A stretch of DNA of 34,347 nucleotides, from contig CAMVKI010000004.1 of the NCBI GenBank assembly GCA_947168005.1, positions 1 through 34,347 on the forward strand. Reading direction: 5' to 3'. Shown in pieces: positions 14,300-31,293 of the stretch (the first letter of the stretch is position 1; every line of letters starts with the position of its first letter). The stretch is from an uncultured Clostridia bacterium (lineage in GTDB: Bacteria; Bacillota; Clostridia; Oscillospirales; Oscillospiraceae). Below the pieces are notes generated by a model. That model did no database searches, had not been told where the DNA came from, and worked only from the letters and a program-made list of their open reading frames with translations. Both the position numbers and the translations under genes were made by a program.

Positions 14300-15160
14300 T
14301 CAGCTCCGCGCCGCCTCGGGGGCGGTGCAGTATTCCGTCCAGTCGTGTTCCAAATCAACGATTTCATAATCTCCGTGGCCGCCGCTTCGCTTCTCCGGCG
14401 GGGGAGGGGTCATATAGTCGCCGTATTGCAGGCGCAGGTAGGCGTCGTACTGCGCGGGAACCGGACAGCGCATATCCTCGAACTGCAGCCGGACGGGCTC
14501 GCTGCCGTAGCAGGAGGCGGGGTAGCGCTTCGACATATTTGCCCAGAGATGGCAGAGATATTTTCCCTTTTTCGCGGCGCAGATCCGGCGCAGGAGCCAG
14601 CCGCGAATCCGGTCTCTGCGCGCCGGGGACAGCCTGCGGACCAGGGAGATCAGACCCACCGTAAAGCGGCTGCTGCGGCGGATGAAGGTCTCCCTGTCGA
14701 TTTGGTAGCTGATCTCATCCTCCCGCAGATAGTAGCAGATTTTGAGCATCGAGCGCTTGAGCCGGTAATCCGAATCGTTTCGGATATAGATGATGGGGAA
14801 GACGTCCACCCAGACGCCGTGGTGGGAGGGAATCGCCATATCCCGCTTCCGGAGCATGGCGGTGCCGTTCTTCCGGACGTGGGCGTAGGGCATGGCGTAC
14901 CAGGGATCGGTTTCGGTGGTTTGGACGAAATAGCCGTCTCCGAGCTCCGCCTGTGCCACGGCCAAAAAGCGATTGTAATCCGCCAGGGGCATCTGGACGT
15001 CGATGTCGTCGTCCCAGGGGATGACGCCCCTGTGCCGCACCGCGCCCAGCAGAGTGCCGCCGCAGAGATACCAGCGGAGCCCGTGCTTTTCGCAGACCTG
15101 GCTGATCTCCTTCAGGATTCCCAGCTCGCAGAGCTGGATCTCTCGCAGAGTGTTGCCCAT
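14300..15160 (-). CDS. LicD family protein (nucleotidyltransferase-fold phosphotransferase)
   Basis: REIQLCELGILKEISQVCEKHGLRWYLCGGTLLGAVRHRGVIPWDDDIDVQMPLADYNRF is the canonical LicD N-terminus. Start set at ATG 15160. Confidence 0.9.
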   Translation of the reverse strand: MGNTLREIQLCELGILKEISQVCEKHGLRWYLCGGTLLGAVRHRGVIPWDDDIDVQMPLADYNRFLAVAQAELGDGYFVQTTETDPWYAMPYAHVRKNGTAMLRKRDMAIPSHHGVWVDVFPIIYIRNDSDYRLKRSMLKICYYLREDEISYQIDRETFIRRSSRFTVGLISLVRRLSPARRDRIRGWLLRRICAAKKGKYLCHLWANMSKRYPASCYGSEPVRLQFEDMRCPVPAQYDAYLRLQYGDYMTPPPPEKRSGGHGDYEIVDLEHDWTEYCTAPEAARS

Positions 15161-15173
15161 ATACGCTCTCCTT

Positions 15174-16484
15174 TCATTTGCCGCGGCGGAAACCGGAGCG
15201 CCGGAGCCCGGCAAGGATTTCCAGCAGGACTCTGGGATGCAGACTTCGGACCATCAGCGCGTTGTTCCGGCGGATGGGCTTGAAGAGGAAGCCGATGATG
15301 ACGTTTGTGAAGAACTGGGTGATCAGGGAGGCGACGGCTGCGCCGATGGCGCCGAGGAAGGGGATCAGACACAGGTTCAGCACCACGTTCGCCAGAGCTC
15401 CGGTGACGTTGATCCGGAGCAGATACTTCTGCTTGCCCTCGGCGAGGATCCAGATATTCCGGACCGAGCCGTAATGGGAGAAGGTGACGTACCAGACCGC
15501 TACCCGGAGAATCTCCGCGGTTCTGGCATAGTCGTCGCCGTAGAGGATATGGACGATGGGCGCCGCCAGCAGGGTCATGCCCACGCTCTGGGCCAGGGAG
15601 AGCCAGGTGATGATGCTGTAGAGTTGGGTGACGCGCTTTTCATACAGGTCCTCCGCCTGGTCCTTCTGCTCCAGGATGACGGGCCTGGCGGAGTCGATGA
15701 CCGCGGAAAAGACGAAGGCGGTCATGCCGATGCAGGTGATGGCCGCGGAATAAAAGCCCGTCTCCTCGGAACCGATCATGAGCCGCAGCATGATCCGGTC
15801 CGTATGCTGGAAGACCATGACCATCAGGCTCGGGATGATGTAGTATTTGCTGCGGGAGAGCATTTCCCGTCCGAGCTGCCGGTTCACGGATAAGCGATGC
15901 GCCCCGACCTTCCGGTAGATCAGAATGAGCGTCAGGGAAATCACAAAGTATTCCAGAACGTGGGACAGGGCGAAGAGATAGACGCTCTTGTGGGTTGCCA
16001 GCAGATAGGTCTTGTAGACCGCGACGATGATATAGGCGCAGAGGCTGGCAATGGAGGGGAATTTGGAGAGCAGCTTGGACTGAAACCAGAACTGGGTCAT
16101 CTCCGTCGCCTGGAAGAGCAGGGAAAAGCTGTACAGAATACAGACGACGATGGTCTCGGTTTCGTTCCAGTTGGCAATGGAAACGAAGGCGACGGAGCCG
16201 ACCATGCAGAAGAGGCTGGAGAGGATATTGATGAACAGAGCTGTGCCCAGAATCGTGCCGTCCCGCTCCGGGGCCTTGACGAACTCCTTGACCAGAGTCT
16301 GATTGAGGCCCAGCTGCATGATGGGCATGGTGAAGGCCACGACGGACATGACGTAGCTGAGGCTTCCGTAATTGGAGGGGCCCAGGTAGCGCACCGTCAG
16401 CAGGCCGATCACAAAATTGATCAGGGATTGGACGATCTTGCAGGCAATGATCCACGCCGCGTTTTGAAAGACATTGCGCTTCAA
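15174..16484 (-). CDS. Oligosaccharide flippase (Wzx-like, MOP superfamily)
   Basis: MKRNVFQNAAWIIACKIVQSLINFVIGLLTVRYLGPSNYGSLSYVMSVVAF, with multiple TM segments. Confidence 0.9.
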   Translation of the reverse strand: MKRNVFQNAAWIIACKIVQSLINFVIGLLTVRYLGPSNYGSLSYVMSVVAFTMPIMQLGLNQTLVKEFVKAPERDGTILGTALFINILSSLFCMVGSVAFVSIANWNETETIVVCILYSFSLLFQATEMTQFWFQSKLLSKFPSIASLCAYIIVAVYKTYLLATHKSVYLFALSHVLEYFVISLTLILIYRKVGAHRLSVNRQLGREMLSRSKYYIIPSLMVMVFQHTDRIMLRLMIGSEETGFYSAAITCIGMTAFVFSAVIDSARPVILEQKDQAEDLYEKRVTQLYSIITWLSLAQSVGMTLLAAPIVHILYGDDYARTAEILRVAVWYVTFSHYGSVRNIWILAEGKQKYLLRINVTGALANVVLNLCLIPFLGAIGAAVASLITQFFTNVIIGFLFKPIRRNNALMVRSLHPRVLLEILAGLRRSGFRRGK

Positions 16485-16520: not shown

Positions 16521-17489
16521 TTACCGGCTGTATTTTCGGTAAAAGATCGCCTTATAGAGAGGGTAGAAGCCGTGGGCGACGATCCAGGCCATGCGCCGCT
16601 CGTGCTTCCTGGGGCTCCGGAAGGCGGGATAGAGGGTCTTCACGGTCCGGATGCAGTCACGCTGCTGCTCCAGGAAGCGCCGGTCTCTGGTCCGGCAGAG
16701 CACCCCCAGGAAGGCGAGGTCGGTTCGGAGCTCCATGCTCACCAGCAGGTCCGCCAGAGCGGGGAAGCTTTCCCGGACGATCTCCTTTTTGCGCTGACAG
16801 AAATAGAGCATATCCAGATGCTTTTCCGAGACGGAATCTCTGGAATTGGAGCCGTCCCGCAGATAGTACAGGTAGACGCTCTCGTTATGCTGAACGGTTT
16901 TTGGCTGAAGGGCGTAGCATTGGAAGAGGAAAAAGCCGTCCTCGTTGACGCTTCTGCCTTCCACAAAGCGGACAGACTGAAAGAATGCCCGGTCAAAGAG
17001 CTTGGCGCAGGCGGAGTTGGTCTGGGCCTCGCCCTCCAGAGAGAGCTTCAGCATCTCATCCCCGGAGCGGAGGATCAGGGAATGGTCCTCGCCGGGCGTG
17101 GAAACCGTACCGTCGGGCCGCACCGCGCTTTTGATCGCCAGAGACAGGTCCGCGCCCTGCTCCTCCAGGTCCTTCACCAGCAGAGCGAGCGCATGCTCCA
17201 GCAGGGCGTCGTCGCTGTCCACGAAGGTGAAGCAGTCCCCGGTCATGGCATCGAGCCCGGCGTTCCGGGCCGCGGAAACACCCCGGTTCTCCTGGTGGAT
17301 CACCCGGATCCGGGGATCGGTTTTCGCGTATTTGCGGCAGAGCGTCAGAGAATCGTCGGAGGAGCCGTCGTCGATAAGCAGAAGCTCCAGATTGGGATAG
17401 CTCTGCTTTTGAATCGACTCGATACAGCGGGGTAGATAGGCCTCGCTGTTATAGATCGGAACAATGATGCTGATTTTTCGAGCGGACAC
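16521..17489 (-). CDS. Glycosyltransferase family 2
   Basis: ISIIVPIYNSEAYLPRCIESIQKQSYPNLELLLIDDGSSDDS...NAGLDAMTGDCFTFVDSDD. Confidence 0.93.
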   Translation of the reverse strand: MSARKISIIVPIYNSEAYLPRCIESIQKQSYPNLELLLIDDGSSDDSLTLCRKYAKTDPRIRVIHQENRGVSAARNAGLDAMTGDCFTFVDSDDALLEHALALLVKDLEEQGADLSLAIKSAVRPDGTVSTPGEDHSLILRSGDEMLKLSLEGEAQTNSACAKLFDRAFFQSVRFVEGRSVNEDGFFLFQCYALQPKTVQHNESVYLYYLRDGSNSRDSVSEKHLDMLYFCQRKKEIVRESFPALADLLVSMELRTDLAFLGVLCRTRDRRFLEQQRDCIRTVKTLYPAFRSPRKHERRMAWIVAHGFYPLYKAIFYRKYSR

Positions 17490-17537
17490 GGGACGCCTCC
17501 TCTCTGTAGGATGCAGGCTTCGGCGAACAGGCAGCTC

Positions 17538-18725
17538 TCAGGAGCGGGGCTCCTGATACAGCTCCAGATAATGTCGATAAGACAGATTTTTATCAAAGGC
17601 CGCTGCCCGGGCTGCGCAGGCCTCGGCGCTGCAGGGCCGCGCCGCGCGGAAATGGCGGAGCGTCCGCTCCAGGGCGTCCAGGTCGTCTGTGGGGACCACG
17701 GCCCCGCAGCCCTCGGTCACTGCCTCGGGACTGCCCCCGGCGTCGAAGGTCACCACGGGGGTTCCGCAGGCCAGGGCCTCGAGGTTGACCGTGGGGAAGG
17801 TGTCCTCCCGGGTCGGATTCAGAAACACGTCGGCGGCGCTGTAGAGCTCCGCCAGCTCCCGCCGGTCCGCCGTGCGGCGGACGGAGATGATTTGCTCCGG
17901 CAGGCTCCGCCTTTGCTTCTCGTCGATGCCCACCAGAAGAATCCGAAAGCCCTCTCCCAGGCGCCGGGCCAGCTCAATAAAGACGTCCAGCCCCTTCCGC
18001 CGCCCCCAGTCGAAGGCGACGCCGAGAATCAGGAAGTCGCTGCCGATGCCGTAACGCGCCCGCAGATCGCTTTCAAGGGGACGGAACACCGTCAGATCAA
18101 TGCCATTCGGGATGAGCCTGGCGGGAAACTCCCGCAAAAAGGAGGCGCGAATCTGGCGGAGCATCCAGTCGGAGGGGGCGATCAGGGTCAGGTCCAGACC
18201 CCGGACCATCTCCCGCTTTGCCTGCCAGAGCGCGGCGCTCCGGTCCCGGAACCAGCTGAAGCTCCGCCGCTGGGGACAGCTTATGCAGCCGCTTTTCCAC
18301 TGCTCGCAGCCCGAGAGGGCGTAGTGGGTGCAGCAGCCGGTGAAGGCCCAGCAGTCGTGGAAGGTCCAGAAGACCCGGATCTGCTTTTCCCGCAGATACG
18401 AGAAGAGCAGCGCGAGATTGCAGTTGTGGCTGTGCAGATTGTGAAGCTGTACCGCGTCGGGCTGAATCCGATCCAGCTCCGCCAGGAGCCTGCGGGTCAT
18501 GGCTTCGGAGACGAAGCCGTAGTTCCCGCTCACTCTGGAGCGCAGGGCCTGGAGCCGGATTTCCCGCTCGTCGGCATAGCGGATGCCCATGGGCTCCTCG
18601 CTCCGCGCGCCGCTGTAGAGAACGTAATTTTCGATCCCGGCCTCCGTGAGCAGCAGACTGAGCTCCCGGCAGATGACGCCGGTGCTGCCCCTGCCGCAGG
18701 TGGCGTTGATTTGTACCAGTTTGAT
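17538..18725 (-). CDS. Glycosyltransferase family 4; natural N-terminus begins at a non-canonical codon
   Basis: Family-typical N-terminus IKLVQINATCGRGSTGVICRELSLLLTEAGIENYVLYSGARSEEP is encoded in frame upstream of the track's ATG 18590. C-terminal domain has FLNPTREDTFPTVNLEALACGTPVVTFDAGGSPEAV. Confidence 0.8.
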   Translation of the reverse strand: MKLVQINATCGRGSTGVICRELSLLLTEAGIENYVLYSGARSEEPMGIRYADEREIRLQALRSRVSGNYGFVSEAMTRRLLAELDRIQPDAVQLHNLHSHNCNLALLFSYLREKQIRVFWTFHDCWAFTGCCTHYALSGCEQWKSGCISCPQRRSFSWFRDRSAALWQAKREMVRGLDLTLIAPSDWMLRQIRASFLREFPARLIPNGIDLTVFRPLESDLRARYGIGSDFLILGVAFDWGRRKGLDVFIELARRLGEGFRILLVGIDEKQRRSLPEQIISVRRTADRRELAELYSAADVFLNPTREDTFPTVNLEALACGTPVVTFDAGGSPEAVTEGCGAVVPTDDLDALERTLRHFRAARPCSAEACAARAAAFDKNLSYRHYLELYQEPRS

Positions 18726-19796
18726 TCAGATCATCTCCCAGAAGAAATGGTAGGGGAAGATATGAAGGATATTCTGCGAGGGGGCGTAGACGATGAAGCG
18801 GAAAGCAAAGAAGCAGAACAGAACCACATTCGCCGCCATGCTGGTCGCACGCCAGCGGGGGGAGGCGTTTACCATGATCCGGGGCAGGGCGATGGGCAGG
18901 AAGATCATATAGTAATAACCCATGCGCATGACCAGGAAGTTCAGGGGCACGAACATCTGAATTGCCGTGGTGACCAGCAGAAAGTTCCGCAGGCCGACGG
19001 TATCCTGGTCCAGATCATCTTCTTCCGTGACAACGAATGAGAAGACGCAGAAGAGGATCAGCAGGAACAGCATGGTATAGGCCCCGGTGTAGCTGTCGCC
19101 AAGGCCCTCATAGTCCTGAATCAGGCCGTGGAGCAGGGAGAAGATCGGCTGATTGAAGACGTAGATCAGTCCCATGACGAGGACCACGAAGATCACGGAG
19201 CGCTTCATGATCCGGAACCAATAGATCGGATACATGACCGCCAGCACAATGGCGCTGCGGTGGAAGAAATAGGCGGCCAGGACGACAAGAAGATAGGGAA
19301 TCGGTTTTTTCTCCTTTGTAAAATAATAGGCAACAATCCCGAGCCCGATGGCGATAATCTGCCGCATACCGGAGAAGTACATATAAAAGACGGAGAAGAA
19401 CATGAACAGGGCGATGGTGGTCATGGGATTTTCCACATTCTTCGCGTAGAACCAGGCGACTGGCAGAAGGCTGATAAAGGCGATCACAGCCAGCAGAAAT
19501 TGATAGCTGCCCGTGAGGCTGTGCACAAGCTTGCAGAGCAGGGCGAAGGCCGGCTCCTTGTAGGAAAGGGCGTAGGCGAGGTTGTGGTTGGCAAAGCGCC
19601 GGAAGACCGTCTCGTAGTTGTTTGTATCGTTGCCGACGGAGTGAGCCCGGAGGGCGGAAAGGAAAAAGAGAAGAGAAAAAAACAGGAGGATAGCCGCTTT
19701 CTTGTAAACACGCCGGTCCGTGTCTATCAGCCGCGGAAGGCGGGCCAACAAACACGGAAGGGCGGGCACGATAAACAACAGCAAGTAGATGTTCAT
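18726..19796 (-). CDS. EpsG family polysaccharide polymerase-like membrane protein
   Basis: Polytopic membrane protein with GNDTNNYETVFRRF, SYKEPAFALLCKLV, FSGMRQIIAIGLGIVAYYF and FHRSAIVLAVMYPIYW, typical of EpsG. Confidence 0.87.
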   Translation of the reverse strand: MNIYLLLFIVPALPCLLARLPRLIDTDRRVYKKAAILLFFSLLFFLSALRAHSVGNDTNNYETVFRRFANHNLAYALSYKEPAFALLCKLVHSLTGSYQFLLAVIAFISLLPVAWFYAKNVENPMTTIALFMFFSVFYMYFSGMRQIIAIGLGIVAYYFTKEKKPIPYLLVVLAAYFFHRSAIVLAVMYPIYWFRIMKRSVIFVVLVMGLIYVFNQPIFSLLHGLIQDYEGLGDSYTGAYTMLFLLILFCVFSFVVTEEDDLDQDTVGLRNFLLVTTAIQMFVPLNFLVMRMGYYYMIFLPIALPRIMVNASPRWRATSMAANVVLFCFFAFRFIVYAPSQNILHIFPYHFFWEMI

Positions 19797-19800
19797 GGAT

Positions 19801-20748
19801 TTATTCCGTCCTGATTCTTCGGAATAGTCGATAATAGGCCTTTCTGACGGTGGGACGGAGCTGTCCGTAAGCAGAGGCCAACAGCAGCCGGAGCCGGGCA
19901 GAGAGCGTCAGCCTGCCCCGTTGCCGCAGGACCTGTTTGCAAGAGCGCAGGTTCTGCCCCTCGCCCTTGAGGGCGCTGCGGAGGGCGTATTCCAGCACGA
20001 AATCGTCCCCCTCGGTGCTGAGCCGGTCGAATACCGGGAGCATTTCCCGGCAGATGGCCTGATTGTCCGCGGTGAACTTCGAGCGGTTCTTCTGGGTCTG
20101 CTGATTCGCGTGGACCCGGCTTTTTACGAGATTGTCCGGAACGACCCGGAGCGCCCAGCCGTGGGTGAAGAGCCGATACCACATCAGGGAGTCCTGGGCG
20201 TAGCGCAGGGCCTCGTCGAAGCCGCCGCACTCGTCGAAGGCCGCCTTGGGAATCAGAAAGCCGCAGCCGTTGAGGGAGCCGTGGCGCAGAACCTGGTGCA
20301 GGGCCTCCCGGGGGCTCATGTCCCGCCGGAGGCGGCAGGCTGCCTTCGTGTCCGGCATGGGGGCGGAGTTCTGGTCGATGGTGGAGAAATTGCAGTAGAC
20401 CAGGGCTTTCCCGTCCTCCGCGGGCAGGGCCGCCACCTGGGCCTCCACCTTGCGGGGCTCATAGAGGTCGTCGTGGGACAGCCAGGAGAAATACGCTCCG
20501 CGCATATTCCGGATGCCGCAGTTGAGGGCGGAGGAGACGCCGCCGTTTTCCTTTTCAAAATAGCGGATTTGATCCCCGTATTCCGCCGCAATCCGGGCGG
20601 TCAGGCCGCCGTCGCGGGAGCCGTCGTTGACGACGAGGATCTCGATGGGCGTGTAGGTCTGGGCGAGGGCGCTGTCAATGGCCTCCCGCAGATAGTCGCC
20701 GCCGTTGTAGACGGGAATGATGATGGATACCAGAGGTTTGGAAGTCAT
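19801..20748 (-). CDS. Glycosyltransferase family 2
   Basis: MTSKPLVSIIIPVYNGGDYLREAIDSALAQTYTPIEILVVNDGSRDGG...YFSWLSHDDLY. Start placed at ATG 20748. Confidence 0.92.
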   Translation of the reverse strand: MTSKPLVSIIIPVYNGGDYLREAIDSALAQTYTPIEILVVNDGSRDGGLTARIAAEYGDQIRYFEKENGGVSSALNCGIRNMRGAYFSWLSHDDLYEPRKVEAQVAALPAEDGKALVYCNFSTIDQNSAPMPDTKAACRLRRDMSPREALHQVLRHGSLNGCGFLIPKAAFDECGGFDEALRYAQDSLMWYRLFTHGWALRVVPDNLVKSRVHANQQTQKNRSKFTADNQAICREMLPVFDRLSTEGDDFVLEYALRSALKGEGQNLRSCKQVLRQRGRLTLSARLRLLLASAYGQLRPTVRKAYYRLFRRIRTE

Positions 20749-20848
20749 ACTTGCAGGACATCTCCGTTCTCTTCGCTCAGAATCGGCCGAAAGCAGGCGC
20801 TTTCGTTTCCGCCATACACCGCGTGGAGGTCTCTGAGCTTCGTATGGC

Positions 20849-20875
20849 TGCCTCTGCCGGAGACCGGCAGAGGCA
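20849..20875. repeat. Perfect inverted repeat (12-bp arms, 3-nt loop) between the giant secreted-protein gene and GT2
   Basis: TGCCTCTGCCGG-AGA-CCGGCAGAGGCA; no adjacent strong T-tract on the minus strand. Confidence 0.7.
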
Positions 20876-20905
20876 TTGAAATTGAATTGCTGCGCGGAAA
20901 CAGGA

Positions 20906-23900
20906 TTACTCCTCGACAAGAATGCCGCGGAGCGCCGCGATCTGCTCGGCGGTAATGCCGCAGTCCATCAGGTAGTTCCGGACGCGCTCGTTGAAGTTGC
21001 TGCCCTCGTAGTTCTCCGCCAGGTAGTTGCGCACGTTGTCGATGGCGCCCTGATCGGAGCCCTTGGAGGTGCAGTATTCCACGATGCAGTCCCGCTCGGC
21101 GACGCCGATGGCGCCTTCCGCCAGGAAGCAGACCACGCCGGAGCGGTCCAGACCGTAGGTGCAGTGGACGTAGACGGGGTAGTTGTCCGGGTTGCAGAGA
21201 TCGTCGAAGATCGCCTTGATCCTGGCCTTGCCGTCCTCGGTGAAGATGTTGTTGTACAGCGGGCAGTTGTAGTACTTGTGCAGCACGCCCTCGCCCAGGG
21301 GGTCGGTCAGACCCACGGAGCTCGCGGCGACCTCTTCCTGGTTCCGGAGGTCGATTTCAGCCTTGACGTGGTAGCTGTTCTTCAGAAGGTCGATGTCGTA
21401 TTCCTTCACGTACTCGGGCAGAGGAGTGGTGTGCAGAGCGCCGTCGAATTCGCCGCCGCGGAGCAGCAGGCCGCTCTTGACGTCCTTGCCGTCGGTGGTC
21501 TTGATGCGGTCCATCATGCCCACGTCGCGGCCGTTGCGGACGCCCACCAGATAGAAGGCGGGGGGAATCATGCGGCCCTGCTCGTCGAAGTTGAAGTACT
21601 GGTCGCCCTTGAGGAAGTCGTTGGTCTTGTCCTTGTGGATCTTGAAGCGGCCCACGGCCAGCTGGCCGGTGGTGCGGACGTAATAGTAATAGCCGTCCTT
21701 CAGAATCAGACCCAGGTCGGGCTCGATCTCGCCCTGGTCGTTGTAGTAGTACAGCAGATCCTGCATCGTGCCGTCCGCGCCGAACTGATAGTAGCCGACC
21801 TCGAGGGGTTCGTCGCCGATGTACTGGGCGCTCAGATAGACGCGCTTGTTCTTGGCGTACTTGTGGCCGTCGTCGATGAAGTAGTAATTGCCTTCCCACT
21901 TGATGAGCTGATAGCAGTTCTGCCGGATGCCGTTGAGGTAGAAGAAGCCGTCGTCCTGGGGACCGTTCTTGACGATGAGCCTGCCCTCGGCGTCGAACTC
22001 ATAGTAGGCGACGGGGAAGGGAGTGCCCTCCACAAACTGAGAGCCGAGGTAGACGCGCTTGTTCTTGGCGATCTTGTGGCCGTCGTCGATGAAGTACCAG
22101 TAGCCCTCGTACTCTACAAGCTGGTAGCAGTTCAGACGGATGCCGTTGCGGTAGAAGAAGCCGTCGGGCTGGGGACCGTTCTTGACGATGAGCCTGCCTT
22201 CCGCGTCGAACTCATAGTAGCCGACGGCGAAGGGGGTGCCCTCCACGAACTGGGCGCTCAGATAGATGCGCTTGTTCTTGGCGATCTTGTGGCCGTCGTC
22301 GATGAAGTACCAGCTGCCCTCGTATTCCACCAGCTGATAGCAGTTCTGGCGGACGCCGTTGACGTAGAAGAAGCCGTCGGGCTGAGGACCGTTCTTGATG
22401 ATCATGCGGCCCTCTTCGTCGAACTCGTAGTAGGCCACGGTGAAGGGAGTGCCCTCCACGAACTGAGCGCTGAGGTAGACGCGCTTGTTTTTGGCGATCT
22501 TGTGGCCGTCGTCGATGAAGTACCAGTTGCCCTCGTACTCCACGAGCTGATAGCAGTTCAGGCGCAGGCCGTTGCGGTAGAAGAAGCCGTCGGGCTGGGG
22601 GCCGTTCTTGACGACCATGCGGCCCAGCTCGTCAAACTGATAGTAGCCCACGGCGAAGGGAGTCCCCTCCACAAACTGGGCGCTCAGATAGATACGCTTG
22701 TTCTTGGCGTACTTGTGACCGTCGTCGATGAAGTACCAGTAGCCCTCGTACTCTACGAGCTGATAGCAGCTCAGCCGGACACCGTCGCGGTAGAAGTAGC
22801 CGTCGTCCTGGGGACCGTTCTTGAGGATCATGCGGCCCAGCTCGTCGAAGACGTAGACGCCGTTGGGCATCAGGCCGTTGCAGCGGGTGCAGTTATAGGA
22901 GCCGGTCACGCCGAAGCAGCCGCTGTCGAAGTAGTAATAATAGTCGCCTTCCTTGACCATGCCGGCGGGCTGGGGAACGCCGTTCTCCAGGTAGGTGTGC
23001 TGGCCGTTGCAGTAGAAGACGCCGCTGGCGTCGGTGACGTACTCGCCGATCAGGACGCCCTCGTCGGTGAACTCATAGAGCTTGCTGGGATCGTTGGAGG
23101 CCTTGATCAGGCGGATGCCCTCGTGGCGGTAGCCCTGACGGTCAAAGCCGTAGGTGTTGCCCTCGATCTCCGCCCAGGCCACGTTGGCGTAGGTGTTGCC
23201 GGCGGTGCAGCGGTAGTAGTCGGGGCCGTAGTAGTACCTGGTGCCGTTCTCGTCGGAAACCCAGGTGCCGTGCAGCAGCTTGCCGTTCTCGAAGTCGAAG
23301 GGCACGCCCGCCAGAGTGACGGTGCCGTTCAGACCCGCATAGCTGCTGGTGTTGAAGTAATACCAGCCGTCCTCGGTGTTCTGCCAGCCCTTCATCAGGT
23401 TGCCGCCGATGGCGTAGTAGGTGTTGCCGTTCAGCTCGAAGACGCCGGTGCCCAGGGGATAGACGTCGCCGCAGACGGAGCAGACGAACTGGCCGTCGGT
23501 CAGGACGTAATCGTGGCCGGAGATCGGGAGATCGGTGCCCCAGTCGATGACGGAGCCGCAGGTCTCGCAGTAGGTGCGGCCGGTGTAGCCGGCGTTGACG
23601 CAGGTGGGAGCGAGCTCAAGGGCGGTGAGCTCGGCGTCGTGATCGTGCCAGGGGTTCACGACGCCGTTGATCTTGGTAACGACGTCGATGCCGCCGTTGA
23701 AGCTGCCCTCGGTGGCGTCGGTGTAGAGGATTTTGCCGACCTCCACATTCGCGGTCACGTTGACCTTCGGGCAGTAGTTGGTGGCGAACTTCTCCGCCTT
23801 GGTGAGGTACGAATCGGGCCAAACGTCCAGGGTGTTCTCGTCATAGGACCAGAGACGCACGGGGATGCTGGCAAGAATCTGCTCGCCGGTCAGCGCGCAG

Positions 23901-26713
23901 TCGGCGCTCTTGGTGATGGTGAGCGTCACACGGTTGGGCTCGACCGCGTTGACCGTATAGGCAGCGGTGACGCCCTCCGGCGTGGAGATGTGCTCCAGCT
24001 CCCACTTGTTCGCGGTGTTGAGGTAGAGGGTGGTCTCGATCTGCTGGATGTCCTCGGCGGCCTCCGCCTTGACGTCTACGTAGTACACGGAGTCGTACTC
24101 GGGGACAATGCCAAGGTCGTTGTGGCCTTCGATGGTGACGCCGGACTTGGCGCCGGCGGCGTTGACGGTGATGGACTTGGTCAGGGTGCTGTAGTTGCCG
24201 AGCTGGTCGGCAATCTCGAAGGTGACCTTGTGCAGACCGTTGGAGAGCACCACGTTGTCAACGGAGAGATTGCTGCCGGAGGCGTTCACGCCGGGCAGGG
24301 CGACGCCGTCCACGTAGATCGCGCCGGTGCTGTAGTCCAGGCCGGTGGCGTTGGACTTGTCGTAGTCCGCGACGTTGGCGTTAAAGGATACCGTGTTGAC
24401 GTCGATGGTCTGATCGGCGAAATCAATGTTGGTGTCGTTGGTGCAGTAGGTGGGATTGCTGATGACGGGGGGCTCGCGGTCGTCCACGGCGTCGCTGTAG
24501 TCCAGGGTGAAGTCGTCGAAGTAGTAGGTCAGGACCTGGGCGCGGGTGGGCTTGATGTACATACGGATGAAGGAGGGGCAGCGGCCCTGACGGGGCTGGC
24601 TGGGATCAGCGGTGGCAATGTAAGTGATGGGATGGGAAACGCCGCTGACGGTGTAGTTGCTGGGGAATTTCGCCTTGACGTAGACCCAGCGGTTCTCGGG
24701 GATGTCCGCTTCCTTCAGGGCGTTGAGGTTCTTGCCGTTGTACTGCATGTTCAGCTCGGTGGTGCCCACGACATGGGGCTCGCCGGTCTCGGCGTCCCGG
24801 TCGCCGTAGTAGCAGGTGAACTGCATGGACAGGGAGCCTGCGGTGTCGCCGTCGGGGTTCGAGAAGCCCTTGGGCACGTAGACCCAGGCGCCGATGCCGG
24901 TGGGATTCTCACCGTTGTCGGAGTCGCGCAGCACGGTGCGCTCGCTGATCTTATAGAGGATCGCGTAGGTCCAGCTGTTGAAATCGCAGTTCCGGAAGTC
25001 ATAATTGACGCCGAGCGCCTTATCGCCGTTATGGACCTTGCCGCCGTTCTCGCGGGTGGAGATGAAGGTCTCGGAGGGGCAGGACATGGAGATCTGGCCG
25101 CCGTCTCTCAGCATAAAGAACTGATCGTCCAGGGCGACGCCGTGATCGTCGAAGTACTGCCTCGCTTCGCCGAAGCCGGCGAAGCCGGACTTCTCGCCGT
25201 CCTCATAGTCCCAGACGACCACGGAGCCCTTGCCGTAGGTGACGTTGTAGGTCATTTCCGTGTTGGTGGGCAGATAGGTCAGCGTAATGACCACGGAGGG
25301 GATGGAGGTGTCTTCGGTGGCGGTGAAGACGAGACCGTTCAGCGTGCCGCCGTTCTCGACCGACAGAGCGGTCTGATAGGTGGAGGCGTCTGTGTAGACG
25401 TTGGCTTCGCCGATCCGCGCAATGACGGGAAGGGTGATGCTGCGGGGCTTGTCGGGCGTGGAATAGGGAAGCGTGGTCTCCGTGGAGGAGAGGTAGAGGG
25501 TGGTGGGGTTCGCGACGTTGATGGTCTTGCTGCCGACGACCTCGCCGCCGGAGAGGACCTGAATGTCAACCTGACCCAGGGTGCCGTTGGAGACGAAAAC
25601 GCCGTCGGAGACGGTGCCGAAGCTGGGATCGGAGAGAGCCCAGCTCATGTCGGCGGGAAGCTCCATGCCGTAGCCGTGGGTGTCGATGGCTTCCGCGTCA
25701 AAGCTGTAGGTGGTGCCGGGAGCAAAGTAGTCGTAAGCGCCCAGAATGTTCACGTTGTTGAGGATGCCGGTGGGCGCCACGTTGGAGGTGATGAGGATGC
25801 TGTTGATGGTGGGACGCTCCGCGCCGTCGCAGGGGACGCAGCGCATGGTGTTGACGGTCTCGCCGGCGCGCTTGGTCACGAAGGAGGAGGAGCCGCCGCC
25901 GTCGCAGTTGACGGCCCACTTGCAGCCCAGAGCCAGCATGGACTCGCCCAGCTCGTAGTTGCAGAAGCCCACGGAGTTGTTGGCGCCGCGGCCGTCGTTC
26001 ATGACGATCACGAGGGTGCCGTCCTCCTTGACGCCCAGCATGGAGCGGGCGGCGGAGGAGGAGGTGCGCTCCTCAGTCTTGCTGACGAGCTGACCGTCCT
26101 TGACGGTGAAATCGAAGTTGGCGGAGACGGCCTGCCAGCAGTTCGCGGGGATGCCGTCGGCGTAGTTGTGGAGCTCGCAGGAGATTTCGCCGGTGTCGGG
26201 GTCCTTGATCACGGCAAGGAAGGTCTTCGCGTGGTGGGAGCCCTGGGAGAGGTTCACGCCGTTATAGACCAAAAAGTCGATGGGGGCGTTGGAGTCATAG
26301 GCAAGAGAGGTGTTCATGGCGCCGATGACGTTGTAGCCCAGGACGTCCTCATAATACTGGACGGTCTCGGTGACGCCGGCCACCTTCCAGTTGTTGACGT
26401 CGCTCAGGTCCGTGTCGATGCCGTAATAGCCGGGGACGATGGAGACGTCGGGGTTGGAGGGATCCACCTCGATGATGTGCATCACCTGACGGCGATTGCC
26501 GGCGGAGTTGTTGAGGACCATCTCGGTTTCGGTGGCCGCGCCGGGAACCAGCGTGTACTCCTTCCGGGAGATCACGTTGTAATAGTCGTTGGTGCCGAAG
26601 CCGACAGGATCTGGCGCGTTGTCCGGCATTGCGAAAGCAGCCATGGGCACTGCGCTCAAAATCATAACGGCGCTCAGAATCAACGCTATCATTTTAGTTG
26701 CGCTTTTTTTCAT
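20906..26713 (-). CDS. Secreted multidomain protein: NAGPA-type phosphodiester glycosidase, beta-sandwich/Ig-like region, wall-binding-like repeats, C-terminal HCX5R tyrosine/dual-specificity-type phosphatase
   Basis: Signal peptide MKKSATKMIALILSAVMILSAVPMAAFA; NAGPA-like ARSMLGVKEDGTLVIVMNDGR...LGCKWAVNCDGGGSSSFV; five WYFIDDGHK/GFFYRNG repeats; C-terminal SGLLLRGGEFDG...AEIDLRNQEEV...YPVYVHCTYGLDRSGVVCFL. Confidence 0.85.
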   Translation of the reverse strand: MKKSATKMIALILSAVMILSAVPMAAFAMPDNAPDPVGFGTNDYYNVISRKEYTLVPGAATETEMVLNNSAGNRRQVMHIIEVDPSNPDVSIVPGYYGIDTDLSDVNNWKVAGVTETVQYYEDVLGYNVIGAMNTSLAYDSNAPIDFLVYNGVNLSQGSHHAKTFLAVIKDPDTGEISCELHNYADGIPANCWQAVSANFDFTVKDGQLVSKTEERTSSSAARSMLGVKEDGTLVIVMNDGRGANNSVGFCNYELGESMLALGCKWAVNCDGGGSSSFVTKRAGETVNTMRCVPCDGAERPTINSILITSNVAPTGILNNVNILGAYDYFAPGTTYSFDAEAIDTHGYGMELPADMSWALSDPSFGTVSDGVFVSNGTLGQVDIQVLSGGEVVGSKTINVANPTTLYLSSTETTLPYSTPDKPRSITLPVIARIGEANVYTDASTYQTALSVENGGTLNGLVFTATEDTSIPSVVITLTYLPTNTEMTYNVTYGKGSVVVWDYEDGEKSGFAGFGEARQYFDDHGVALDDQFFMLRDGGQISMSCPSETFISTRENGGKVHNGDKALGVNYDFRNCDFNSWTYAILYKISERTVLRDSDNGENPTGIGAWVYVPKGFSNPDGDTAGSLSMQFTCYYGDRDAETGEPHVVGTTELNMQYNGKNLNALKEADIPENRWVYVKAKFPSNYTVSGVSHPITYIATADPSQPRQGRCPSFIRMYIKPTRAQVLTYYFDDFTLDYSDAVDDREPPVISNPTYCTNDTNIDFADQTIDVNTVSFNANVADYDKSNATGLDYSTGAIYVDGVALPGVNASGSNLSVDNVVLSNGLHKVTFEIADQLGNYSTLTKSITVNAAGAKSGVTIEGHNDLGIVPEYDSVYYVDVKAEAAEDIQQIETTLYLNTANKWELEHISTPEGVTAAYTVNAVEPNRVTLTITKSADCALTGEQILASIPVRLWSYDENTLDVWPDSYLTKAEKFATNYCPKVNVTANVEVGKILYTDATEGSFNGGIDVVTKINGVVNPWHDHDAELTALELAPTCVNAGYTGRTYCETCGSVIDWGTDLPISGHDYVLTDGQFVCSVCGDVYPLGTGVFELNGNTYYAIGGNLMKGWQNTEDGWYYFNTSSYAGLNGTVTLAGVPFDFENGKLLHGTWVSDENGTRYYYGPDYYRCTAGNTYANVAWAEIEGNTYGFDRQGYRHEGIRLIKASNDPSKLYEFTDEGVLIGEYVTDASGVFYCNGQHTYLENGVPQPAGMVKEGDYYYYFDSGCFGVTGSYNCTRCNGLMPNGVYVFDELGRMILKNGPQDDGYFYRDGVRLSCYQLVEYEGYWYFIDDGHKYAKNKRIYLSAQFVEGTPFAVGYYQFDELGRMVVKNGPQPDGFFYRNGLRLNCYQLVEYEGNWYFIDDGHKIAKNKRVYLSAQFVEGTPFTVAYYEFDEEGRMIIKNGPQPDGFFYVNGVRQNCYQLVEYEGSWYFIDDGHKIAKNKRIYLSAQFVEGTPFAVGYYEFDAEGRLIVKNGPQPDGFFYRNGIRLNCYQLVEYEGYWYFIDDGHKIAKNKRVYLGSQFVEGTPFPVAYYEFDAEGRLIVKNGPQDDGFFYLNGIRQNCYQLIKWEGNYYFIDDGHKYAKNKRVYLSAQYIGDEPLEVGYYQFGADGTMQDLLYYYNDQGEIEPDLGLILKDGYYYYVRTTGQLAVGRFKIHKDKTNDFLKGDQYFNFDEQGRMIPPAFYLVGVRNGRDVGMMDRIKTTDGKDVKSGLLLRGGEFDGALHTTPLPEYVKEYDIDLLKNSYHVKAEIDLRNQEEVAASSVGLTDPLGEGVLHKYYNCPLYNNIFTEDGKARIKAIFDDLCNPDNYPVYVHCTYGLDRSGVVCFLAEGAIGVAERDCIVEYCTSKGSDQGAIDNVRNYLAENYEGSNFNERVRNYLMDCGITAEQIAALRGILVEE
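21785..22849 (-). repeat. Five tandem 213-bp (71-aa) coding repeats inside the giant secreted protein
   Basis: Unit FDELGRMVVKNGPQPDGFFYRNGLRLNCYQLVEYEGNWYFIDDGHKIAKNKRVYLSAQFVEGTPFTVAYYE. The GGCCGTCGTCGATGAAGTA core recurs at 213-bp spacing (e.g. 22078 and 22291). Confidence 0.92.
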
Positions 26714-26775
26714 TTGTACACTCCTTACTTGATGATTTTATTATAATCGGAATCCCGCCTGCGTCGGGATGCCGA

Positions 26776-27777
26776 TCATAATCCAGATGTAGGGGAGACG
26801 CTTCCCTCCGCCGGGCCCGGCCCGCTGTCGGCAAGGGCTCGGGCCGCCAGCGCTGCGTAATCCGCGGCGGCCGGGGCCGACAGGATCAGGGCCTCGGTCC
26901 TCTGGGCCAGGGCGTCCAGCAGAGCGGCTTCCCGTTCGGACAGCTCCTCCAGAGAGAATTGCCGGTTGTAATAGCTCAGAGCCAGCAGGGCGGGGGAGCA
27001 GTACCAGCGCAGATCGTAGCGGTTCAGGAGACCTGCCCGCCGCCGGGCCTCCTCCCGTCCGAGGGGACCGCCGGCGATCCCGCGGTCGAGGAAGAACAGA
27101 TGGGTCGCCGCGGCGGGACTTCGGCGGAAGCGGGCCGCCCGCTCCCCGGCGCTCCGCCCGGCTTTGCCCCGATAGCTGTTCGTCCAGGGCACGGGATAGA
27201 GCTTTTCCCCGTCGAAGATGCAGATGTCCTCGCTCAGGAGCTCCGCGCCCCAGTCCTCCGAGAGCCGGAGGGCGGTGAAGGTCTTGCCCCCGTTGGGCGG
27301 CGCCATGATCAGAGCGGCGTTCCGGCCCAGCGTGAAGGCGGAGCCGTAGAGCAGGGCGAAGCCTTGCCGCAGAAGGAGGGCGTTTGCCAGCTCAAAGAGG
27401 ACGTAGCTGATCGGATGGAGATTCATGACCTTGAGCCGGACCGCCTTTCGGTAGGTCCGGCCCACCCTGGCGTAGACGGTGTCGCCCTCGATCCGAAGGG
27501 ACCAGCGAAGCGACCAGGGACCTGGGAGCTTGCGGGAATAGAGGAGCTCCATCCCGTCCCGCTTCGCGCAGAAATACCGGAAGCGCCCCTCCCGGTGCTC
27601 CGTTTCCTCCGCCGGGAAGACGTCCCGATCCCGGACCGTCTCCAAAACGAGCTTGCATCGGCAGCGCTGAAAGTCCTGCTCGGAGGCAGGAGGCGCGTCC
27701 GAGCCGAAGCTCCAGCGAAAGTGCTTCTCGTTGGTCTTCAGACCGACCAGATTCTCTGCGAATACGTAATAATTCAT
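26776..27777 (-). CDS. HPr kinase-like P-loop protein (HprK-related) of unknown function
   Basis: ALLYGSAFTLGRNAALIMAPPNGGKTFTALRLSEDWGAELLSEDICIFDGEKLYPVPWTNSYR: Walker-A-like GGKT and the following LSED-x-(n)-G arrangement resemble HprK-related kinases. Start set to ATG 27777; upstream part of the track ORF overlaps the GT4 gene out of frame. Confidence 0.6.
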   Translation of the reverse strand: MNYYVFAENLVGLKTNEKHFRWSFGSDAPPASEQDFQRCRCKLVLETVRDRDVFPAEETEHREGRFRYFCAKRDGMELLYSRKLPGPWSLRWSLRIEGDTVYARVGRTYRKAVRLKVMNLHPISYVLFELANALLLRQGFALLYGSAFTLGRNAALIMAPPNGGKTFTALRLSEDWGAELLSEDICIFDGEKLYPVPWTNSYRGKAGRSAGERAARFRRSPAAATHLFFLDRGIAGGPLGREEARRRAGLLNRYDLRWYCSPALLALSYYNRQFSLEELSEREAALLDALAQRTEALILSAPAAADYAALAARALADSGPGPAEGSVSPTSGL

Positions 27778-27791
27778 ACAGGACACCCGCT

Positions 27792-28907
27792 TCAGGAAAG
27801 ACCGTAAATCCGCCGCATGATCGCGTTGACCTTCTCCAGGGAGAACTGCTCGGCGATGGGAAGCCCTCGCTCCGAGAGGAGCTTGTACAGCGCCGGGTCC
27901 GAGATCAGCCGTTCGATGCCGGCGGCCAGGGAGGCCTCGTCGGTGAACAGGCAGGAGCAGCCAGGCACATCGTAGCGGGGAACGTATTCCCGGGAGCCCC
28001 GGTTGTCGGAGCAGAGCACCGGGAGCCCCGCGGCCATGGCCTCGATGGGCGCGAGGCCCAGGCCCTCGCGGATGGAGGAGAACACGTGAATATCCGCAGC
28101 TCTGCACAGCGCCGGAATGTCGTCCCGGTATCCGAGCAGATGCACCTGTTCCGCAACGCCGAGCTTGTTTGCCAGCAGGCGCAGCCTGTCATGCAGAGGG
28201 CCCTCGCCGGCGATCAGATAGTGAATCCGACGGTTTTTCATCCGGGCCAGGGTCCGGATGACGACGGCGTGATTCTTGTTGGCGTTCAGCTCGCCCACGG
28301 AAATCAGAACCACGGCATCGGCGGGAAGCCCGAGGGAGGCCCGCTGTTCGCTCCGATCCATGGCCGCGGTTCGGAAGCGCTCCACGTCCGCGCCGACCCC
28401 GGGCACGTATTCCACCCGCCGGGCCTTCATCCGTGTCCGCGCGATCTCATAATCCTCGTGATTGATTGTAATCAGCGTATCGGTAAAGCGGGAGCAGCAG
28501 TGCTCGATGGGGTAGTAGAACAGCCAGTTGACAAAGGGCGCCCCGCGATAGAAGTGGAAGCCGTGAGTCGTATAGTAGACCTGTACCCCTTCTTTGCGCA
28601 GATCCTTGCAGGCCAGCCGGGTGCAGACGCCGGCCACCGGTGTGTGACAGTGCACGACGTCATAGCGCTTTTCCGCGACAAGGGCTCTGAGCTGGCGAAT
28701 CGCCCGGAGATTGACCGGATGGAAGGGGGTGCGGGACCAGTCGATCTGATGGACGGCGCAGCCCCAGTCCCGGTAGAGCTTCGGCACGCTGACGTCGGAT
28801 TCATTGACGGCAATCTCCACCGTGTTTCCGCCGTCGATCAGGTCTTTTATGAAGCTTGTAAAAAATCCCATTGTCAGCCCAATGGTGGTAACGTACAGGA
28901 TTCTCAT
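27792..28907 (-). CDS. Glycosyltransferase family 4 (EpsD-like)
   Basis: MRILYVTTIGLTMGFFTSFIKDLIDGGNTVEIA...DVVHCHTPVAGVCTRLACKDLRKEGVQVYYTTHGFHFYRGAP...SSIREGLGLAPIEAMAAGLPVLCSDNRGSREYV. Confidence 0.92.
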   Translation of the reverse strand: MRILYVTTIGLTMGFFTSFIKDLIDGGNTVEIAVNESDVSVPKLYRDWGCAVHQIDWSRTPFHPVNLRAIRQLRALVAEKRYDVVHCHTPVAGVCTRLACKDLRKEGVQVYYTTHGFHFYRGAPFVNWLFYYPIEHCCSRFTDTLITINHEDYEIARTRMKARRVEYVPGVGADVERFRTAAMDRSEQRASLGLPADAVVLISVGELNANKNHAVVIRTLARMKNRRIHYLIAGEGPLHDRLRLLANKLGVAEQVHLLGYRDDIPALCRAADIHVFSSIREGLGLAPIEAMAAGLPVLCSDNRGSREYVPRYDVPGCSCLFTDEASLAAGIERLISDPALYKLLSERGLPIAEQFSLEKVNAIMRRIYGLS

Positions 28908-28950
28908 AAACGTCTCCTAAAACAGACCGCTGCGGAAAACGGCTGGAGTT

Positions 28951-29727
28951 TTATCTTTTCGCGCCTTTTTTGGCGTCTTTTTTCACGTCTTTTTTCGCGT
29001 CCTTTTTGGAGTCGTCGGTTTTCGGTATCTCTCCGTAGGGCGTGTAATAGCGGTAGTACTTCTTCTTGCCGTGTCTGCCGTAGTATTTTTCCTTGGACTT
29101 GGAGCCCGCGTTGTTCAGCACGACGCCGAGGGGGGTGCAGCCCGCCTTTTTGAGCTGCTCCACCGCGTCCTGGGCGGCCTTGTAGGGGACGTGGGTGCTG
29201 CCGATCACAAGAAGGGCGCTGTCGCAGTTCGCGGCGATGACCGCCGCGTCGATGACCAGACCGATGGGGGGCGTGTCGATGATGACGTAATCATAGACCT
29301 CGCTGACGGCTTCGATCAGATCGGAGAAATAGCTGCTGTTCAGGAGCTTGACCGGGTTCGGGGGATACTTTCCCGAGAAGAGCACGTGGAGATTGGGATA
29401 CTGGGTCTTGTAGACCGCGTCCTTGAGCTCCGTCATGCCGCTGATGGTCTCGCTCAGACCGTTGACGTTGGAGGAATCGGAGTTTCTGCCGACCATGACG
29501 GACTTCCGCAGGTCCGCGTCGATGACCAGGACCCGCTTGCCCAGCTCCGAGAGACTGCGTCCCAGATGCAGGGACAGAACGGTCTTGCCCTCGTTCTGCT
29601 CCACGCTGGTCAGGGCGATGACCTTGACGTCCGGCCCGCTGAACTGAATGTTGGTACGCAGGACGTTGAAGGCCTCCTGAACGAAATAGTTTTCCACACC
29701 GGGGATTGTAATGGTTGTCTTGTTCAT
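28951..29727 (-). CDS. CpsD/CapB family bacterial tyrosine kinase (BY-kinase)
   Basis: EAFNVLRTNIQFS, VEQNEGKTVLSLHLG (Walker A), RVLVIDADLRKSV (A'), YDYVIIDTPP (Walker B); Tyr-rich C-terminus YYGRHGKKKYYRYYTPYGE plus (KKDA)n tail. Confidence 0.92.
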   Translation of the reverse strand: MNKTTITIPGVENYFVQEAFNVLRTNIQFSGPDVKVIALTSVEQNEGKTVLSLHLGRSLSELGKRVLVIDADLRKSVMVGRNSDSSNVNGLSETISGMTELKDAVYKTQYPNLHVLFSGKYPPNPVKLLNSSYFSDLIEAVSEVYDYVIIDTPPIGLVIDAAVIAANCDSALLVIGSTHVPYKAAQDAVEQLKKAGCTPLGVVLNNAGSKSKEKYYGRHGKKKYYRYYTPYGEIPKTDDSKKDAKKDVKKDAKKGAKR

Positions 29728-29731
29728 CGGA

Positions 29732-30559
29732 TCACCCTCTCTCCTCGTTCGGCTTGTTTTCGGCGGCCGCGGGAGGGGCGGCATTGCCGTAGCTGCCGTA
29801 TTTGTAGGGCTGATACCTGCCGTAGGCCTTGTAGCGGCTGTATTTGTACTTTTTGTACTTCTTCCCGGAGGCGTCCTCCGCGTTGGGGATGATGCCGAGG
29901 ACGCTGAGGTTCAGGTACTTTGCCACGTCCTCCTCGGTCTTCACCTTGTCGTCGCAGAGGAAGGCGACAAAATAGGCAAAGTAGGCAATGACCGCGGCGA
30001 TGACGCCGGCCAGGCTGTACTTGAACAGGCCGATGGAATTGCTCGGCTTGTCGGGGACCTTGCCTAAGCTGTAGATGTTGACCTGATCCAGGCTCATGGT
30101 GGAGGAGATTTTTTCCGCGCCGATCTGACAGACGGTGTCCACAATCCGCTTCGACTGCACCGGAGAGGGCGTCTCCACCGAGACCTCGAGGATTCGGGTT
30201 CCGTCGGGGTTCCGGGTGGTGATGCACTTGGAGAGCTCGGAGGCGGTCATATCCAGCCCGAGCTTATCGATCACATCGTCCAGCACCTCGTAGCTGCGGA
30301 TCATATAGACGCAGTCGTTGACGACGTTCAGCGCCAGGGTGAAATCCGACTGGGTGTAGGAGGAATCGCCCTCCCGCTCCTGCTTCAGGATATAGACCGT
30401 GGCGGTGGATTTGTATTTCGTGACCTTAAAGAACTTCGCGTAGACGTAGAGCCCGGCGATGGCAAGGGCGGCAGCGGCGAAGATCGGAATCAGATGCCAT
30501 ATGAAAATATGCCAGAGATCCATCAGGTCAAAGGTGCTAAGCGTTGATTCTTTTTTCAT
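29732..30559 (-). CDS. CpsC/Wzz-type chain-length determinant and kinase modulator with Tyr-rich cytoplasmic tail
   Basis: Two TM segments flanking an extracellular domain (LWHIFIWHLIPIFAAAALAIAGLYVYAKFFKVTKYKSTATVYI; YSLAGVIAAVIAYFAYFVAFL). Tail KKYKKYKYSRYKAYGRYQPYKYGSYGN. Confidence 0.9.
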   Translation of the reverse strand: MKKESTLSTFDLMDLWHIFIWHLIPIFAAAALAIAGLYVYAKFFKVTKYKSTATVYILKQEREGDSSYTQSDFTLALNVVNDCVYMIRSYEVLDDVIDKLGLDMTASELSKCITTRNPDGTRILEVSVETPSPVQSKRIVDTVCQIGAEKISSTMSLDQVNIYSLGKVPDKPSNSIGLFKYSLAGVIAAVIAYFAYFVAFLCDDKVKTEEDVAKYLNLSVLGIIPNAEDASGKKYKKYKYSRYKAYGRYQPYKYGSYGNAAPPAAAENKPNEERG

Positions 30560-31293
30560 GGCTGTTCATAGGCTCCTCTGTTAAATATGATCTGAGCGGC
30601 CTTCCGGTAGAAGAGCTGCTCCGCGTAGTCCGCGCCGAAGCGCTTGAGAATCAGCGCAAAGGCCTGGGTCAGCTCCGGCGGCCGCTCCGTCAGATCGTGA
30701 GCGTCTGAGCAAACCAGGTCCGCGAGGCGGCGCTTCAGAAGCTGAAGCCCCATCTGCTTTGCCTGCCGGGTCCAGTTGCCCAGCACGGAATCCGCGTCGA
30801 TCTGGATCAAAACGCCCTTGTTTTTCAGCTCGTCAAAGACGTCCCAGCAGCGATACAGCTCCCCGTAACGCTCCGCGTGGGCGAGAATCGGGTGGTATCC
30901 GGCGTTCAGAAGGCGGTAAAGCGCGTTTTTGATGGTATAGGCGGACTCGTCGGCGTGAAAATCCACCAGCACATACCGGGTGCCGTTGAGGGTATTGCAG
31001 GCGCCCCGGTCCAGCCATTCCACGGCGGAGGGGCCCCAGCGCAGCTCGTTTCCGAGGGCGACAAGCGCGTCCGGATGGAGCCTCGCCGCCGCCTCGCACA
31101 GCTCCGCGTAGGCGGCCCGGGTCCGCTCGGTATTGTCGCCGAAGAGACCGTAATGGAAATGCGGCGTCACGCAGAAAAGCCGCGTTCCCGCCGCGTAGGC
31201 CCGCTCAAAGATCGCCAGCATCTGCTCCGGCGTCCTTGGACCGTCGTCTGTGCGGCAGAGCATGTGGATATGAATATCCGCAAAAACTGTCAT
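30556..31293 (-). CDS. CpsB/CapC family PHP-type tyrosine-protein phosphatase
   Basis: FADIHIHMLCRTDDGPRTPEQMLAIFERAYAAG, VTPHFHY, PILAHAERY, LVCSDAHD metal-binding motifs. TGA overlaps the CpsC ATG. Confidence 0.92.
   Translation of the reverse strand: MTVFADIHIHMLCRTDDGPRTPEQMLAIFERAYAAGTRLFCVTPHFHYGLFGDNTERTRAAYAELCEAAARLHPDALVALGNELRWGPSAVEWLDRGACNTLNGTRYVLVDFHADESAYTIKNALYRLLNAGYHPILAHAERYGELYRCWDVFDELKNKGVLIQIDADSVLGNWTRQAKQMGLQLLKRRLADLVCSDAHDLTERPPELTQAFALILKRFGADYAEQLFYRKAAQIIFNRGAYEQP

Follow-up and report, generated by a model that had tools for sequence, protein, structure and literature searches.

A predicted secreted protein joining a NAGPA-type glycosidase to a Cys-based phosphatase in a capsule locus of an Oscillospiraceae bacterium

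In the lysosomal mannose-6-phosphate pathway, NAGPA, the uncovering enzyme, uncaps its substrate to a phosphomonoester. NAGPA domains are common in bacteria, where their natural substrates are mostly obscure. ShfP-like cell-surface calcineurin phosphoesterases are secreted proteins of large size that combine several domains, among them Ig or wall-binding modules, and some of them carry NAGPA and the phosphoesterase on one chain (PMC11488536). Large Bacillota proteins with Ig domains, wall-binding hairpins and a TelC plus NAGPA core have also been described, and a role in conflict was suggested for them (PMC12419801). Given these published NAGPA giants with calcineurin-like or TelC partners, the general design of the protein reported here is already known. 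A further parallel is pneumococcal Pce, a secreted enzyme that carries repeats of the choline-binding type and strips phosphodiester decorations off the wall polymer of its own cell, taking about 20% of the phosphocholine from teichoic acids (PMC4929436). Among phosphatases of the Y_phosphatase3 fold, the P-loop Asp serves as general acid in MptpB, and the Lys in HCXXGKDR defines the atypical lipid phosphatases, such as MptpB and Listeria LipA (PMC3091653).

The protein studied here shares with the uncovering enzyme the NAGPA fold, as judged by profile (3ohg, 6pku), the DGGGS motif and a predicted cleavage of sugar-1-phosphodiesters, but its NAGPA domain belongs to a 1935-aa bacterial surface protein whose gene lies in a cps locus and whose chain also carries a second enzyme for phosphate chemistry. 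That second enzyme is a Cys-based phosphatase of PTP fold, unlike the metal-dependent calcineurin-like partner of ShfP-like proteins, for which the giant gives no Pfam match. The TelC plus NAGPA giants likewise have a second enzyme in addition to the NAGPA core, along with Ig-like domains and hairpins that bind the cell wall, whereas here the second enzyme is a phosphatase, the gene sits in a cps biosynthesis locus with LicD, and a conflict role is not indicated. The fold, the HCX5R signature and the P-loop Asp are common to MptpB, LipA and our protein, which differs in its Leu in place of the P-loop Lys, its predicted extracellular location and its fusion to a glycan enzyme. Pce, in turn, is a metal enzyme that cuts the phosphodiester itself and works without a phosphatase, and choline binding is only putative in the giant. 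A Cys-phosphatase partner, the split form and the LicD link, all described below, were not found in the literature searched.

The gene occupies positions 20906..26713 on the minus strand of the window, a 34,347-nt stretch of a contig from an uncultured Clostridia bacterium; all coordinates below refer to the window and, unless stated otherwise, to this strand. As the original prediction had it, the gene is a single 1935-aa frame, which begins with ATG and has a signal-peptide-like N-terminus (residues 1-28, 26630..26713; Lys-rich start, hydrophobic core, AFA-M), and the product is predicted to be extracellular. The signal peptide call and the topology calls below were made by sequence inspection and residue counts rather than with a trained predictor. 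The genome that holds the window is 84% complete, and most of those compared with it are draft MAGs. A different genus (G107) encodes a full-length ortholog with 67% identity, which speaks against an assembly artefact. The gene is GC-rich, and the 1956-aa open frame antisense to it (20876-26746, plus strand) is in all likelihood its shadow ORF; all domain evidence sits on the minus strand. An NCBIfam TraW match at residues 1377-1401 is far under the cut-off and was rejected as chance.

Both ends of the protein match the families originally named for them and keep the catalytic motifs. The N-terminal NAGPA phosphodiester glycosidase domain spans residues 44-310 (25784..26584), within which the Pfam family NAGPA (PF09992, DUF2233) matches residues 128-308 (25790-26332) with an E value of 2.2e-22 and 80.5 bits against a cut-off of 25. 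Profile searches against the PDB match 3ohg (5e-17) and 6pku (6e-12), the NCDGGGSSS motif is intact, and the DGGGS/Arg region is conserved on sequence comparison. The same genome encodes a second NAGPA protein, with S-layer-homology-like repeats, on a short contig (C275; L005 / L023), and the viral contigs searched hold distant NAGPA domains only.

The C-terminal domain (residues 1717-1935, 20909..21565) is assigned as a Y_phosphatase3-type Cys phosphatase by Pfam (PF13350, residues 1722-1894, E 2.1e-19, 70.9 bits against a cut-off of 22.2) and by its AF2 model, which adopts a PTP fold. Foldseek matches this model to a Y_phosphatase3-type PTP of C. difficile (E 1e-10) and to MptpB, and more weakly to the glucan phosphatases SEX4 and laforin among dual-specificity folds. 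The active-site loop HCTYGLDR (His1850-Arg1857) lies at 21143..21166; the HCTYGLDRSG segment that had been placed at 21137-21166 is exactly there, and the AEIDLRNQEEV strand noted upstream of it is present at 21329-21361. The HCX5R signature is intact in all but two of 51 relatives, one of which has Gly for Cys while the other could not be read by the pattern, and each of the 50 relatives whose signature could be read keeps the P-loop Asp. The Gly belongs to a close relative (L010, G230:C71) that reads HGTHGADR and has thus lost the catalytic Cys, either as a possible pseudoenzyme or through an error in sequencing. At the diagnostic position of the P-loop Lys, the window protein has Leu, half of the 51 relatives have Ala and one of them has Lys. 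The analogy to LipA and phosphoinositide phosphatases made in the original prediction therefore fails, because the Lys of HCXXGKDR is replaced (PMC3091653), and a LipA-like function is rejected as an assignment.

Several segments lie between the two enzymes. Residues 311-497 (25223..25783) are described as a putative Ig/beta-sandwich-like segment from their position; Big_2 directly follows NAGPA in a relative. Residues 498-748 (24470..25222) are modelled by AF2 as a CBM-like beta-sandwich domain (pLDDT 81), and Foldseek matches it to CBM28/27/22/30/11 with E values of 3e-5 to 6e-4; the top entry is a flagellar filament sheath protein, and otherwise the nearest structures are carbohydrate-binding modules. 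Putative Ig-like and cohesin-like segments, recognized by eye in alignment A3, follow in residues 749-1000 (23714..24469), where a search for a family match gave none, and then a small module with a CxxC motif (residues 1038-1081, 23471..23602) whose Cys residues are conserved in the same alignment. Degenerate repeats of the CROP/choline-binding type, recognized with a profile of relatives, cover residues 1091-1298 (22820..23443). The five tandem repeats reported earlier are 71-aa units of this type with 63-82% identity to the first unit (residues 1299-1653, 21755..22819). These five units gave no match when searched alone against the PDB, and a profile built from five giants matches CROP repeats, choline-binding proteins and the pneumococcal phosphorylcholine esterase Pce; Choline_bind_3 is also matched in relatives of the giant. 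In view of the profile matches, the label of wall-binding-like repeats was a fair one, and binding of choline or glycan by them is putative.

The giant gene sits in the middle of a collinear minus-strand cluster that runs from CpsB (31293) to LicD (14300) and forms a Wzx-type cps locus in the order CpsB, Wzz, BY-kinase-like ATPase, GT4, P-loop protein, giant, GT2, EpsG, GT4, GT2, Wzx and LicD. The CpsB/CapC (PHP phosphatase), Wzz, ATPase and first GT4 genes occupy 27792..31293, the P-loop protein gene 26776..27777 (likely start MNYYVF), the GT2, EpsG-type, GT4 and GT2 genes 16521..20919, the flippase gene 15174..16484 and the LicD family phosphotransferase gene 14300..15214 (PF04991, E 3.8e-41), about 5.7 kb downstream of the giant. 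A Pfam scan of the P-loop protein gave no match. Its motif, PPNGGKT or PPNMGKT, occurs in the gene directly upstream of the fusion in both genera that have it (window 26776-27777; L015 598-1587) and is reminiscent of HPr-kinase-like P-loops.

We found the same fused protein in one further genus of the family, in a goat omasum MAG (RGIG2819, G107), where it is 67% identical overall and 92% identical in the NAGPA domain and is flanked by the same P-loop gene on one side and a GT2 on the other. Nei-Gojobori dN/dS values between the two proteins are 0.047 for NAGPA and 0.18 for the phosphatase; they are rough because dS is above 1, and on them both enzyme domains are under purifying selection. The searches covered samples of the family, order and class rather than every genome: beyond these two, about 700 sampled family- and order-level genomes contain no further NAGPA plus phosphatase fusion, and the class-level sample of 79 genomes contains no other long frame with both domains, as judged by listed frame lengths (a 1347-aa frame of G730 was viewed partly). 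The architecture, which the original prediction had proposed to look for across Firmicutes, is thus represented in these samples by one genus besides that of the window. A scan of genome contigs returned the G107 locus and one distant phosphatase only.

NAGPA giants without a phosphatase domain occur in many genera, and many of them end in the same kind of repeat. In eight non-fused genomes, both a giant (alignment A2, E <= 1e-35) and a phosphatase (alignment A1, E <= 1e-20) are present, and in six of the eight (G218, G061, G494, G485, G381, G623) the two genes lie within 14 kb on one contig; in the remaining two they are on different contigs of draft assemblies. The probability of six or more linked pairs under random placement is about 2e-10, and the close spacing may reflect that both genes share cps loci. 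Genome-level presence and absence overlap weakly in the order sample (p 0.015 with and 0.04 without the window's genome), so the signal between giant and phosphatase is one of physical linkage.

LicD is the most frequent neighbor family after the giant itself in neighbor clustering, being found at 17 of 22 NAGPA-giant loci. At phosphoglycosyltransferase loci without a NAGPA giant, hand-counted from tables for 69 genomes of the order, LicD lies within 20 kb in 6 of 66 cases (Fisher p 3e-9 for the comparison, a value that overstates independence since some loci come from related genomes). More distant NAGPA giants have LicD nearby in one of about twenty cases, and G310 has a NAGPA giant with no LicD found in its genome. 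Most genomes with a giant also have no detected phosphatase, indicating that neither LicD nor the phosphatase is an obligatory partner. Enzymes of the LicD family have been proposed to make decorations linked through phosphodiesters, as on enterococcal EPA (PMC7188991), and a literature search for LicD together with NAGPA found nothing relevant.

A FastTree of 58 domains places the fused phosphatase within a clade (support 0.99) in which every other complete member is membrane-anchored; the support for its exact sister is just 0.045. Five of the six phosphatases linked to giants belong to this clade, and that of G485 comes from a distant one. In cps-type members with a membrane helix, 7-15 Lys or Arg residues precede the helix and 0-5 follow it, and on this excess the catalytic domain is predicted to lie outside. 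Some of these membrane-anchored relatives adjoin CpsB, Wzz or kinase genes in cps loci. Because extracellular Cys phosphatases of this kind recur in the cps loci of the order, calling one in such a locus unusual, as had been done, was too strong. Regulation of the cytoplasmic BY-kinase by the phosphatase is unlikely, given the signal peptide of the fused protein and the N-in/C-out prediction for the single-gene relatives. A further phosphatase of this clade, membrane-anchored and encoded on its own, is found in the window's genome at a site not recognized as a cps locus (G000:C53:1818-3254; L002, L016). Several membrane-anchored phosphatases (L002, L009, L014, L026, L031 and others) carry a CROP/choline-binding-type repeat within their N-terminal ~90 aa, before the basic stretch and helix, and by the positive-inside rule this repeat would be cytoplasmic.

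With moderate confidence, we propose that the giant is secreted, stays bound to glycan and edits the capsule or wall polysaccharide of the cell that makes it. Its NAGPA domain would hydrolyze a sugar-1-phosphodiester in this polymer, which the LicD of the same locus probably puts in place, either itself or by an indirect route, and would leave a phosphomonoester that the C-terminal HCX5R phosphatase would then take off; in several relatives, a separate phosphatase, usually membrane-anchored with its catalytic domain outside, would perform the dephosphorylation. The CBM-like domain and the CROP/choline-binding-type repeats would keep the enzyme on the glycan. The chemical coupling of the two enzymes, which the original prediction had put forward as uncapping followed by dephosphorylation, is backed by their fusion in two genera, by their adjacent but separate genes in others (a Rosetta stone pattern) and by LicD near most relatives. 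The activity of both domains, the bond cleaved, the order of the steps and the cell's own polymer as substrate are what we infer from sequence. Against the editing proposal, the cps neighborhood may reflect a general gathering of surface-glycan genes. The giants that lack LicD or a phosphatase, the weak genome-level overlap, the distant phosphatase of G485 and the lost Cys of the G230 relative also count against it. More tentatively, such loci might form a system in which a LicD-type enzyme writes a phosphodiester unit, NAGPA uncaps it and a fused or anchored Cys phosphatase erases it, tuning surface charge after export.

The locus and fusion evidence fits polymer release or turnover equally, in which NAGPA would cut the sugar-1-phosphate-6-MurNAc anchor of a capsule or wall glycopolymer and the phosphatase would clear MurNAc-6-phosphate. 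Phosphodiester attachment to the C6 of MurNAc is the Gram-positive prototype (PMC7831098), and the anchor is the type of bond cut by mammalian NAGPA (sugar-1-phosphate to a C6 hydroxyl). We nevertheless regard this explanation as rather unlikely, since it leaves the LicD neighborhood unexplained and no LCP match was found among the window ORFs scanned.

Less probable again is that the two enzymes have unrelated targets, with NAGPA editing glycan and the phosphatase acting on phosphotyrosine of surface or host proteins. Some Y_phosphatase3 enzymes are indeed protein tyrosine phosphatases, as is the best match in the PDB, but extracellular phosphotyrosine is not known in these bacteria. That the phosphatase is repeatedly linked or fused to a glycan enzyme also counts against it, as do sister phosphatases of one genus, which are encoded in tandem arrays and carry CBM_4_9, Big_3 and dockerin domains, again tying the phosphatase branch to extracellular carbohydrate. 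These CBM_4_9 and dockerin domains, together with the CBM-like domain of the giant and the rumen or gut setting of the goat omasum ortholog, would fit an enzyme with a nutritional role, stripping glycans that bear phosphate (phosphomannan, for example) and come from the diet, from yeast or from other bacteria; the gene's place amid a cps biosynthesis cluster, with relatives likewise placed in many genera, makes such foraging improbable. An exported effector against the envelope of competitors, resembling the TelC plus NAGPA giants (PMC12419801) with their suggested conflict role, is the explanation we credit least, as the giant has no TelC or NlpC/P60 Pfam match (Pfam may not cover prok-TelC), its catalytic domains are conserved rather than diversifying, and its position beside cps biosynthesis genes and LicD is fixed.

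The editing proposal suggests that bacteria with such loci pare back the phosphate decorations of the glycan coat on their own surface; if true, the phosphate on the capsule would be edited once the polymer has been exported, which would matter for the surface charge of gut bacteria, for phage binding and for host recognition. The LicD neighborhood and the phosphatase fusion provide a concrete, testable guess at the substrate of this NAGPA subfamily. The data also point to an extracellular, glycan-tied family of Cys-based phosphatases in Oscillospirales-type gut bacteria; the substrates usually assumed for such phosphatases are proteins or lipids. No relatives of the phosphatase were found on the viral contigs searched, and plasmids gave three weak matches. 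The tandem arrays of the sister phosphatases (L064, G327:C100, with matches in G303, G345 and G362) consist of 5-6 genes for proteins of ~800-1300 aa each, and a Pfam scan of two of the proteins found Y_phosphatase3, CBM_4_9, Big_3 and dockerin type I. They are possible cellulosome-borne Cys phosphatases, a kind of enzyme for which our literature search found no paper. At the class level, one genome (G727; C147, C152, C236, C269) holds nine matches to the phosphatase family, several of them in tandem.
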